Source: Candidatus Poseidoniia archaeon | GTDB lineage: Archaea; Thermoplasmatota; Poseidoniia; MGIII; CG-Epi1 | NCBI GenBank assembly: GCA_030748895.1 | Contig: JASMLC010000009.1 | Coordinates: 1-59,093, forward strand | Direction of reading: 5' to 3' | DNA length: 59,093 bases | Shown: one piece after another, positions 44,407 through 52,335 of the stretch | How the letters are laid out: every line of letters begins with the position of its first letter | Position numbering within the stretch: position 1 is the first letter of the stretch | Notes under the pieces: model-generated | What the model was told of the DNA's origin: nothing | The model's database searches: none | What the model saw: the letters and a program-made list of their open reading frames with translations, nothing else | Translations under genes and position numbers: made by a program

Positions 44407-47400
44407 CTACGAGCAGCCCGTAGTGGCTCCACACCCAGTGCACTTGAAGCAGTTGCCGTTGGGGACCAGCATGAACTGGCCGCAGTCGGGGCACGGGTCG
44501 CCCGAGAAGCCCATACGAACCGCCTCCGTGACACTCGCCTGCCGCAGGTCACCGGTCGCGCCGGGGGTTAGCGGGCCGGGGTCGAGGCTCGGGTCGGGCG
44601 GGTTGCCCATGTCGTCGAGCGTCATCTGGATTTCGTGCTGGTCGCCCGACGCTTCGCCGTGCGGGGAGCGCTCGCTGGCGGCATCTTCGAGGTCGTCTTC
44701 AGCGACCGACCGGAGGGCATCGGGGCGCAGGTCATCCTCGGTGACGCCGTGTGCGAGGTCGTAGCGGCCGAGGTAGTTGATGGCCAGCTCGCGGAAGAGG
44801 TAGTCGATAATCGAGGTCGCCATCTTGATGCGTTCGTTGCCCTGCACCGGGCCGAGCGGCTCAAAGCGCGAGAAGACGAAGGCATCAACGAATTCCTCGA
44901 GCGGGACGCCATGCTGTAGCCCGAGGCTGATGGCGACCGCGAAGCAGTTCATCAGGCTGCGGAAGGCTGCTCCTTCTTTGGCCATGTCAATGAAAATTTC
45001 GCCGAGGCTGCCATCCTCGTACTGGCCAGTGTGGAGGTAGACCGTGTGCCCCCCAATCTTGGCCTTCTGGATGTACCCCGTACGGCGCTCGGGGAGCCGC
45101 CGCCGCTGCGCGATGTAGCGCGTCACTACCTTGCGCGCAATCTGGTGCGCGTCGGGCGTCGGCAGCGCGTCGGCCATGATTTCGACCGCTTTCTCGGCCG
45201 AGACGAGGCCTTCTGCCAGTAGCTCCTCGTCCTCAGCCAGCGCGACCGTCAGGCTGGTGCCCGACATCAGTGGCTGGCTCAGCTTGGAGCCGTCGCGGTA
45301 GAGTGCGATGGATTTGTTCATCGTGCGCCATGATTCCTCGTAGGCCTGACTGATTTCGGCGACTGTCGCCTTATGTGGCATGTTGATAGTCTTCGAGATG
45401 GCGCCCGAGATGAACGGCTGCGCGGCCGCCATGATGCGGACGTGCGCGTGCCACGAAATAGAGCGGGTGCCGTAGCGTCCGCAGCGGTTGGCGCAGTCGA
45501 AGACGGCGAGGTGCGCTTCCTTGAAGTGTGGCGCGCCTTCGACCGTCAGTCGCCCGAAGACGTAGTCGTCGGCCGCCTGCACTTCATCAGTCTCGTAGCC
45601 CAGGTGTTCGAGCAGGTCGAAGGCGGGACTGGTGACCTGCTCCTGCGTAACGTCGAGCTTCTCGAGGCAGTATTCTTCGCCGATGTGCAGCGGCGTCACC
45701 AGCATCTTCAGCGAAGTCGTGGTGGGAATCGCCTGCTCGAGCTGGTCGATGACCTCGCCCGAGAGCCCCTTGCGTTTGAGCGATTCGCGGTTGACGTCCG
45801 GTGCTTCCACCAGCGTGCCGTTCCCGAGCATATAGCGGATGATGTCGTCGCGCTGCGCCTCGTCGTAGCCGAGCCGTTCCACCGCGAGCGGCACCGACTG
45901 GTTGATGATGCGCAGCATTCCGCCGCCCGCCAGTGTCTTGAGTTTCACCAGCGCGAAGTCGGGCTCGATACCGGTGGTATCGCAGTCCATCTGCATGCCG
46001 ATGGTGCCGGTCGGCGCAATCACCGTGACTTGCGCGTTGCGGTAGCCGTGCCGTTCGCCCAGCGCCACCGCCTCGTCCCACGCTGAGCGGGCGCTGTTGA
46101 GCAGGTATTCCGGGCAGTAAGCGGGGTCAATCGCGAGCGGCTTCACGGTCAGTCCTTCGTATTCGTCGGCCGGGGCGTTGCACGCCGCACGGCGGTGGTT
46201 TCGCATCACCCGCAGCATGCAGTCGCGGTTCTGCTCGTAGCGCGGGAACGGCCCCTTCACGCGTGCCATCTCGGCCGAGGTGGCGTAGCTCGCCCCCCCG
46301 AGAATGGCGGTCAGCGAGCCGCAAATCGCGAGCGCGCGCTCGTCATCGTAGGGAATCCCCATGCGCATTAGCAGCGAGCCGATATTGGCGTAGCCGAGGC
46401 CGAGGGTGCGGTAGTCGTAGCTGCGCTTTGCAATCGCCTCGGACGGGAATTGCGCCATCAGCACCGAAATTTCGAGCACGACCGTCCAGAGCCGGATGGC
46501 GTGCCGGTAATCGTCCAGTCGCAGCATTCCCTCGCGCTCGTCGTAAAACGCGCCGAGGTTGAGCGACGCAAGGTTGCACGCCGTGTCATCAAGGAACATA
46601 TATTCCGAGCAGGGGTTCGACCCGCGAATCGGCCCGTCGGGCGCGCAGGTGTGCCACTCGTTGATGGTGGTGTCGAACTGGATGCCGGGGTCGGCGCAGG
46701 ACCAGGCGGCCTGCGAAATCTGGTCCCAGAGGTCGCGCGCCGGCAGGTTACGGCACGCCTCTGGCTCGCGCCCTTCGGCCGCCGCCGCCTCAAGCTCGGT
46801 GCGCCAGTAGAGCTGCCACTCCCCATCGGAGAGCGCTGCTTCCATGAAGGTGTTGGAGGCGCGGACCGAGTTGTTGCTGTTCTGCCCTGAGACAGTCTGG
46901 TAGGCATCGCCCTCCCAGTCCGTATCGAACGTGGTGACCTCGAGGTGGGACCAGCCCTGCTCGCCCAGCTCGAGCACGCGTGCGACCAGCGTCTCGGGGA
47001 CGTAGTCGCGCAGTGCCGAGCGCACCGCGCGCGCCAGCGCCCGGTTCAGTTTCTGGTCCAGCTTATCTCCCTCTTCGGGGTGCGCCACGATAGCAGCCAG
47101 AATTTCGTTGGCGTGGTCCTGTAATTGCCGCGAACCGGCAACCAGTGCGGCCACTTTCTCTTCCTCTGAGACCTTCCAGTTGATGAACTCTTCAATGTCG
47201 GGATGGTCCATGTCAAGGCAGACCATCTTGGCGGCCCGACGAGTTGTGCCGCCCGACTTGATGGCGCCCGCAGCGCGGTCACCAATCTTCAGGAATGACA
47301 TCAGTCCTGATGAGCGGCCGCCGCCCGAGAGCGGCTCCTCGCCGCTGCGGATGGAGGAGAAGTTGGAGCCGGTACCCGAGCCGAACTTGAAGAGCCGCGC

Positions 47401-48084
47401 CTCGCGCGTCCAGAGGTCCATGATGCCTCCTTCGTTGACGAGGTCGTCGCTCACCGACTGGATGAAACAGGCGTGCGGCTGCGGGTGCTCGTAAGCGCTG
47501 GTCGAGCGCTCCAGCTCGCCGGTTCTGGCGTTGACGAAGTGGTGCCCCTGCGGGGGTCCGTCAATCCCGTAGGCCCAGTTGAGGCCGGTGTTGAACCACT
47601 GCGGCGAATTGGGCGACGCCATCTGCGCCGCCAGCATGTAACAGAGTTCGTCGTAGAACGCGCGCGCATCCTTCTCGGACGCGAAGTAGTCATGTTTCCA
47701 GCCCCACCAGGTCCAGGTCCCTGCCAGGCGACGGAACAGCTGCCGGCCGTCCTTTTCGCCGCGGTGGCGCTTGCTGACGCTCAGCTTCGCCAGTGCCTTT
47801 TCGTCAGGCGCGGAACGGCGCAGCCACTTCGGAACGTCCTTTTCGACTACCGCTTTCAGCTTGCGCGGGATGCCTGCCTTGCGGAAGTATTTCTGCGCCA
47901 GCACGTTGGCTGCGGTCTGGCTGTAATTGACAGGAAGGTTGACACCGCGCATCTCGAAAGCGGTCGTGCCGTCGAAGTTACGAATCAGCGTGTCGCGCTT
48001 CTTCCATTCCAGCGCGTCGAATGCGTCGGCACCTGCCTCAGTAAAACGCCTTTCAATTCCAAGTCCTTCTGGATTGGCTGGCAT
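44407..48084 (-). CDS. nrdJ: Adenosylcobalamin-dependent (class II) ribonucleotide reductase
   Basis: A 1225-residue enzyme making deoxyribonucleotides with B12 in place of a tyrosyl radical or oxygen. Landmarks: [69 protein letters not shown], and [19 protein letters not shown]. The C-terminus holds two CxxC pairs in a zinc ribbon ([26 protein letters not shown]). Start is set at ATG 48084; an ATG 23 codons upstream (48153) lies only about 15 bp from the nearer TATA box and is less likely. It is long for the family, probably through insertions. The upstream region is rich in inverted repeats. Confidence 0.94.
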
Positions 48085-48107
48085 CAGGCCACCCCCCAGG
48101 GTGGCTG

Positions 48108-48115
48108 AGATATAG
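48108..48115 (-). promoter_or_regulatory. Proximal TATA box of nrdJ
   Basis: GCTATATCTC on the minus strand, about 27 bp before the preferred ATG 48084. A GC-rich hairpin (GCCACCC and GGGTGGC, 48087-48104) lies between it and the start codon. Confidence 0.5.
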
Positions 48116-48162
48116 CATCGTATTTTGCCATTACAATCATGGGTTCGGGGCATTCTGGCTAC

Positions 48163-49222: not shown

Positions 49223-50008
49223 ATGCAGCTGGCGGTGGCGCAGGCGCCCGTGGAACTTGGCGATGTCGAGGCGAATCTCGCGACGGCACGCAAGCTGCTG
49301 GAGCAGGCGCAGGCGGCGTGCGACGGCGGGCTCGACCTGCTGGTGCTGCCCGAGCTGTTCCTGACGGGATACCTGCTGCGCGACGACTACGCGCGCGTCG
49401 CCGAGACGGTCCCGGGCGACGGCCCGGCGCAGGTGGGCCTCGCGGCGCTCGCGGCCGACAGCGGCGTCCATATCGCCGCCGGGCTGGTCGAGCGCGGGCG
49501 CGAGAGCCTCTACAACGTCGCGCTGCTGGTCGGGCCCGACGGCTACATCGGCCACTACCGCAAGCGCTACCTCCCCAATTTCGGGCCGTTCGAGGAGAAG
49601 CTGCACTTCGGCGCCGGCGACGCGACGCCGGTCTTCGAGACGCCGCTGGGGCGCATCGGGATGCAGGTCTGCTACGACATATTCTTCCCGGTGCAATCGC
49701 TGGCGCTGGCGCACGGCGGGGCCGAGCTTATCCTGAACATCTCGGCCAGCCCGACGACGTCGCGTCCGCTGTTCCATCGCATGCTCCCCGCGCGCGCCAT
49801 CGAGACCACCTGCTTCTGGGTTTTCGCCAACAACGTCGGCGTGCAGGGCTCGCTCACCTTTGGCGGCGAGTCGTGCATCGTCGACCCGCGCGGGCGCTTC
49901 GTCGGCGAAGCGCCCGCGCTCGAAGCAGGCATTGCGGTGGCGGAGATTGACCTCACCACGCTGCCGTCGTTCCGCGAAGCGCGGCCGGTGCTGCGCGACT
50001 CTCAGTAG
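49223..50008 (+). CDS. Carbon-nitrogen hydrolase (nitrilase superfamily)
   Basis: A 261-residue amidase with the catalytic triad E44 (LPELFLTGY), K114 (YRKRYLPNFG) and C150 (MQVCYDIFFP). The closest functional themes are N-carbamoylputrescine amidohydrolase, omega-amidase or a glutaminase partner. It is divergent from nadE, so supplying ammonia to NadE is possible, but no direct evidence exists. A CTTTTACC element about 25 bp before the ATG is the likely promoter. Convergent with the next gene by 7 bp. Confidence 0.85.
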   Translation: MQLAVAQAPVELGDVEANLATARKLLEQAQAACDGGLDLLVLPELFLTGYLLRDDYARVAETVPGDGPAQVGLAALAADSGVHIAAGLVERGRESLYNVALLVGPDGYIGHYRKRYLPNFGPFEEKLHFGAGDATPVFETPLGRIGMQVCYDIFFPVQSLALAHGGAELILNISASPTTSRPLFHRMLPARAIETTCFWVFANNVGVQGSLTFGGESCIVDPRGRFVGEAPALEAGIAVAEIDLTTLPSFREARPVLRDSQ

Positions 50009-50499
50009 GCGGCCTGGAACTGCGACAGGTCGGCGTTGCACTTCCCGCACTGGAACATGGGCGAGATGCAGGCGGAGTGGAACTTGATGTTGCAGTGGTT
50101 GCAGGTCGCGACGTAGCTGCCGGTGCGCAGCTCCATATCGCAATCGGCGCAGGCGGCCGACGCGAACTCGACTCCCGTTTTCTGCTGCTTGAGCTGCTTG
50201 CCAGTGCGCGTTGCGCCGCCCTTGACCAGCCCGGCCGCCAGGACTCTCCTGTGCGCCTTCTCGACTTCGGGTTTCAGGTGCTGTAGCGCCTCAATCAGTT
50301 TCTTCTGCCGCAGCGCAACGATTTTCTCGATGTGCCCCACCGCATCCGATTCGCGCTGGAGTGGCGGCATCTTGCCCAGTTCCTCGGCGATGCGGTGCAG
50401 GCTGCCCCGCTCCTGCTCGACCCACTTCAGTAGTGCCTTCATCAGGTTGTAGCCGCGAGTCGCCTCCTTCTTGGTCAGGTGGAGCGGGTCGCGGGTCAT
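50002..50499 (-). CDS. Helical protein with C-terminal C4HC3 (PHD/RING-like) zinc finger
   Basis: A 165-residue protein. Residues 1-100 are helical and basic/charged (EATRGYNLMKALLKWVEQER, HIEKIVALRQKKLIEALQHL). The C-terminal finger has ligands C117, C120, C133, C136, H141, C144, C151 and C154: C-x2-C-x12-C-x2-C-x4-H-x2-C-x6-C-x2-C. The order and H-x2-C spacing match PHD or treble-clef cross-brace fingers. Such domains are unusual in archaea. Function unknown. A CTTTTTAGG element lies about 75 bp upstream. Confidence 0.8.
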   Translation of the reverse strand: MTRDPLHLTKKEATRGYNLMKALLKWVEQERGSLHRIAEELGKMPPLQRESDAVGHIEKIVALRQKKLIEALQHLKPEVEKAHRRVLAAGLVKGGATRTGKQLKQQKTGVEFASAACADCDMELRTGSYVATCNHCNIKFHSACISPMFQCGKCNADLSQFQAAY

Positions 50500-50656
50500 G
50501 CGACCGCCCCCGGGAGGTCTTCAGGAAGTGAGTTGAGTCCGGACACGGAGCCGGGGCACGCCTGTCGGCCCTAAAAAGAATTCCCTCCTCGAGTGCATGG
50601 GAACTGGTTCAAGCTTTGACAATCAGCTTTTAACCGTAGCAGCCTGCCGCCAGCCG

Positions 50657-52002: not shown

Positions 52003-52335
52003 GTGAGCGACTGGATTGACTGCGAGAATTGTGGCGACCAGTTCGAAATCAGGCGGGTTTTCCAGCGCAGCCATGGTTACTGCTCGCGTTGCCGCCAGCA
52101 CATGAAGCCGCTCGACCTGGAACTGCTCTGCGCCGCCGAAGGCGCGGTGGCGGGGCACGGCGACGGCCGCGTCTCGCGCGGCGACTTGCAGGAAATCATG
52201 GCCATCATCCGTGGGACCGGCTGGTTCAGCCCGGTCGAGAGGGCGACGCTCGACCTGATTCACCGCAACTACCGTTTCACCAGCGCCGCCGAGAAACTCT
52301 ACCGCACCGAGCTCGGCAACTGGCCCAAGGGCTAA
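52003..52335 (+). CDS. Small zinc-ribbon protein, unknown
   Basis: A 110-residue protein starting at GTG. An N-terminal zinc ribbon has C7, C10, C27 and C30 (CENCGDQF, YCSRC). The rest is a helical domain (DGRVSRGDLQEIMAIIRGTGWFSPVERATLDLIHRNYRF) with an HTH-like rhythm. It may bind nucleic acid or a protein partner. It is convergent with the MBL hydrolase gene, overlapping by 4 bp. No family recognised. Confidence 0.75.
   Translation: MSDWIDCENCGDQFEIRRVFQRSHGYCSRCRQHMKPLDLELLCAAEGAVAGHGDGRVSRGDLQEIMAIIRGTGWFSPVERATLDLIHRNYRFTSAAEKLYRTELGNWPKG

Follow-up and report, generated by a model that had tools for sequence, protein, structure and literature searches.

A small gene of a Candidatus Poseidoniia archaeon encodes a protein of 165 amino acids in which a basic N-terminal domain, predicted to form a helical hairpin, is joined to a C-terminal C4HC3 finger, predicted to be RING-like. 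The finger belongs to a known kind, while its carrier is unusual and restricted to a single genus. The gene occupies 50002..50499 on the minus strand of the window, by which is meant the whole analysed stretch of 59,093 nucleotides (contig JASMLC010000009.1), and its frame runs from 50499 to 50002 with an ATG start codon and a TAG stop codon. Two orthologues have been found, both in the same genus, with 89% and 68% identity, making a set of only three sequences including the window protein. The closer one belongs to a MAG from the Cayman site that is assigned to Euryarchaeota, in agreement with the archaeal origin assumed in an earlier note on this DNA. Pairwise dN/dS values among the three are 0.13, 0.19 and 0.08, the last coming from a pair near synonymous saturation. 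Since the orthologues keep all eight ligands of the finger and dN/dS lies between 0.08 and 0.19, sequence comparison indicates that the gene is real and under purifying selection. It is known so far from one genus of deep-sea archaea only.

The finger spans residues 117–154 (50038..50151, minus strand), with the ligands C117, C120, C133, C136, H141, C144, C151 and C154. The spacing is C-x2-C-x12-C-x2-C-x4-H-x2-C-x6-C-x2-C (gaps 12/4/6), and the loop between the sixth and seventh ligands (C144–C151) consists of six residues, ISPMFQ, without Trp. The eight ligands, their C4-H-C3 order and their C-x2-C, C-x2-C, x4-H-x2-C and C-x2-C spacing had been described before from the letters of the DNA, without the length of the six-residue loop, and they are borne out by the frame and by both orthologues, the eight ligands being invariant in all three proteins. 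They are also invariant in an alignment of 20 archaeal fingers, with RING-compatible spacing in four pairs. Of the 602 frames in the window that run from stop to stop over 60 amino acids or more, a single one, that of the 165-amino-acid gene, has a C4HC3 pattern of this type, and 300 shuffles of all 602 frames produced none. Each finger would hold two zinc ions.

The whole-protein model, built from three sequences, is poor in the finger (pLDDT 45–69), and in fold comparison it brings up coiled coils without specificity. For this reason a separate model of the finger was built from the 20-sequence alignment, with pLDDT 81 and pTM 0.63. The stretch that separates the second ligand pair from the His forms a hairpin in this model, followed by a short helix and last by a strand (strands at 23–26 and 33–35, helix at 36–39 and strand at 56–58, in residues of the modelled segment). 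A RING-like treble clef is made of a primary β-hairpin, a short helix and a C-terminal strand, with the last ligand at the start of the strand (PMC4506424). Among PDB structures, RING fingers (Arkadia, RNF38, 3lrq and EL5) come first and PHD fingers second in Foldseek, with probabilities for RING mostly of 0.8–0.97, although the E-values are weak (best 0.05). The TM-scores against EL5 (1iym) are 0.56/0.60, and the PHD finger of Pygo (3zpv) superposes with an rmsd of 1.1 over 35 columns. The model thus supports a RING/PHD-like treble clef. The fold comparison proposed in the earlier note places RING and then PHD on top, and no double zinc ribbon is a top match.

Every curated family cut-off is missed by the window protein, for which the best sub-cut-off families are Prok-RING_1, C1 and double zinc ribbon. 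The C1 domain (PF00130) scores 15.5–19.9 bits against a cut-off of 26.5. Its spacing, C-x2-C-x12-14-C-x2-C-x4-H-x2-C-x6-7-C, is nearly identical to that of the window finger, which, however, is without the N-terminal His ligand of C1 and obtains its eighth ligand from the C-terminal CxxC. In C1 the N-terminal His precedes the first CxxC by about 12 residues; the corresponding residue 104 is K, and His is absent from the stretch between residues 84 and 134. Against Prok-RING_1 (PF14446) the window protein scores 16–19 bits, below the cut-off of 29.1, and no match above this cut-off was found in 40 relative genomes. On the other hand, two relatives scanned singly exceed it (L072, 59 bits; L076, 37 bits), and all of the 20 aligned fingers match Prok-RING_1 at E <= 1.

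Fingers of this type had been regarded as rare in archaea, a view that does not survive the profile search proposed together with it, which finds relatives of the finger across Thermoplasmatota. When run across the class, the three-sequence profile reached the C-terminal ends of proteins of about 1350 amino acids with exactly the same ligand spacing. A combined profile of genus and outside fingers returned 30 loci from 390 genomes of the phylum, and the finger is present in 16 of them, mostly with gaps of 12/4/6. When the profile of the genus fingers was compared with that of fingers from outside the genus (an alignment including L072 and L076), the probability was 98% and the score 57. When all columns other than those of the ligands were permuted, the scores averaged 27 and peaked at 53, and none of 200 trials reached 57. 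Since these controls keep the ligands and score lower, the genus and phylum fingers appear from their sequences to be related through more than their cysteines, by a small margin over the best permutation.

The fingers of the relatives lie mostly at extreme C termini. A segment resembling a membrane helix is found within a few dozen residues of the finger in six loci (L064, L066, L071, L073, L080 and L091), and in three others (L053, L054 and L089) such a segment is followed by a long tail that bears the finger; other relatives have no such segment in the portion read. The Prok-RING_1 and Thermoplasmatota finger tails share with the window finger the eight ligands, their order, mostly the 12/4/6 gaps and the C-terminal position. 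They differ in the carrier: a basic, soluble hairpin for the window finger, membrane proteins for many of the relatives. The proteins of about 1350 amino acids in related archaea (L089:1999-6054, L053, L054 and L060) are membrane proteins resembling surface glycoproteins, and their C4HC3 finger stands at the end of a long acidic, Pro/Gln-rich tail. One locus contains two separate frames, L080:1462-1638 and L080:2959-3099, each ending in a C4HC3 finger.

The window protein stands apart by its carrier, predicted to be a basic hairpin of helices, which has no detectable relatives. Residues 1–110 (50170..50499, minus strand) have a pI of 10.3, with 23 Lys and Arg against 12 Asp and Glu, and AlphaFold2 predicts two long helices in them, 10–42 and 52–90, with pLDDT mostly 70–91 across residues 11–90 of the whole-protein model; a helical, basic N-terminal domain had already been recognised in the earlier note. 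Homologues of the hairpin outside the genus were not detected in the collections searched. The 165-amino-acid protein has no relatives among viral contigs, phage records and plasmids, only chance-level scores against PHROGs and NCBIfam, and nothing but finger-only or chance helical matches in a whole-protein profile search of 340 genomes of the class. Two weak matches of this profile (L057 and L058) were discarded because they represent another ribbon protein, about 127 amino acids long, that resembles ribosomal protein L37ae.

The earlier note described such fingers as characteristic of eukaryotic chromatin and ubiquitin proteins. In RING-type E3 ligases, Ile or Leu precedes the second ligand, Trp precedes the seventh, and a linchpin Arg or Lys follows the eighth. 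At these E2-contact sites the window protein has the invariant D119, a C6–C7 loop without Trp, and the invariant N155, and a connection to eukaryotic chromatin or ubiquitin proteins is not upheld. The archaeal RING E3 of Caldiarchaeum, srfp, is a C3H2C3 protein encoded in a ubiquitin operon, and its E2-contact Ile, Trp and Arg (I30, W58 and R69) have been probed by mutation (PMC5654768). The window protein is likewise a small archaeal protein with a RING-like fold by prediction, but it has neither the C3H2C3 order nor the operon nor the three contact residues, and there is no ubiquitin-system gene near its own. One E1-like ThiF protein is present in the genome, and Prok-RING_1 is the best prokaryotic family; a search of the genome for E2 (PF00179) gave no match, although control genomes are equally silent and this is no proof of absence. 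That the protein is an E3 of an archaeal ubiquitin-like system is, on this balance, very improbable. Still harder to believe is a chromatin-reading PHD finger. In PHD fingers 12–46 residues separate the sixth and seventh ligands, and the last pair is preceded by a Trp. The window finger shares with them (PF00628) the C4HC3 order and the C-x4-H-x2-C motif, and PHD structures are among its fold matches, but its loop of six residues without Trp and PF00628 scores under the cut-off, in the orthologues too, led to rejection of a PHD identity. Of the PHD/RING cross-brace type named in the earlier note, the predicted treble clef thus stands and PHD as such does not. The three CxxC pairs and the HxxC, together with weak matches to Zn_ribbon_6 and DZR, could also be accounted for by two independent zinc ribbons or by a single-zinc structure. 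This is improbable in view of the invariant His within C-x4-H-x2-C, of the ligand spacing, all of which fits the cross-brace type, and of a treble-clef model that matches RING and PHD.

Because the finger recurs as a C-terminal tail without enzymes around it, the simplest reading is a protein-docking module. The finger would then be a structural module, neither a ubiquitin ligase nor a histone reader, borne by membrane proteins on their inner side in the relatives and joined in the window genus to the hairpin, which might grip a second partner or drive dimerisation. We give an even chance to the 165-amino-acid protein being a small soluble adaptor of this kind. Its neighbours (NAD synthase, CN-hydrolase and a geranylgeranyl reductase) point to no partner, and the basic N-terminal domain suits nucleic-acid binding equally well. 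The main rival is therefore a nucleic-acid-binding or transcription-associated protein, whose hairpin and finger would bind DNA, RNA or RNA polymerase, as in factors that combine a coiled coil with a zinc finger, such as DksA. It is suggested by the pI, by the hairpin fold and by weak hits of the whole-protein model in the fold comparison, which include DksA2 and the Rad50 zinc hook, but these hits have E > 0.7 and are of the sort that two-helix coiled coils routinely bring up. The coiled coil of DksA carries one four-cysteine finger at its base, an arrangement different from that of the window protein, and many fingers of this kind are on membrane proteins; the nucleic-acid reading is possible but rather unlikely. 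An adaptor is the preferred reading. The C4HC3 RING-like finger proves to be widespread in Thermoplasmatota as a C-terminal module, with nothing here that points to a ubiquitin system, which speaks against taking such archaeal fingers by default for chromatin or ubiquitin proteins. The small soluble carrier makes this protein convenient for learning what they bind.

The gene is antisense to the two genes that flank it. Class II ribonucleotide reductase, NAD synthase and CN-hydrolase come first in the locus, followed by the 165-amino-acid gene and then an FAD-dependent reductase of the geranylgeranyl-reductase type. In two sister genera the CN-hydrolase and reductase genes are adjacent in 12 of 12 genomes examined, separated by a few dozen bases without a finger gene, whereas in the window genus each of the three genomes that have the locus carries the gene between the two, in antisense orientation. 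Three further genomes of the genus do not have the gene, but they are incomplete and also without a close copy of the reductase, and their lack of it is not evidence of loss. The simplest reading of these gene orders is that the gene was inserted, or was born, between the CN-hydrolase and reductase genes in the ancestor of the window genus. More speculatively, and with considerable doubt on our part, the joining of a mobile archaeal RING-like finger to an orphan basic hairpin may have given rise to a genus-specific family, which would have placed a novel regulatory adaptor in a locus of NAD/amide metabolism and membrane-lipid saturation that had been contiguous until then. The gene shares 7 bases with the end of the CN-hydrolase gene. 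In the divergent intergenic region between it and the reductase gene (50500..50656), alignment of three genomes reveals that the AT-rich elements TTAAAA and CTTTTTAG, in minus-strand reading, are kept, and they may act as a promoter. No known RNA families are found near the gene. Elsewhere in the window, a frame of 110 amino acids (52003-52335, plus strand), which is without a Pfam match, has a zinc-ribbon-like N terminus, C-x2-C-x16-C-x2-C (CENCGDQFEIRRVFQRSHGYCSRC), and the class II ribonucleotide reductase (44407-48153, minus strand) has a cysteine-rich ribbon as its C terminus.
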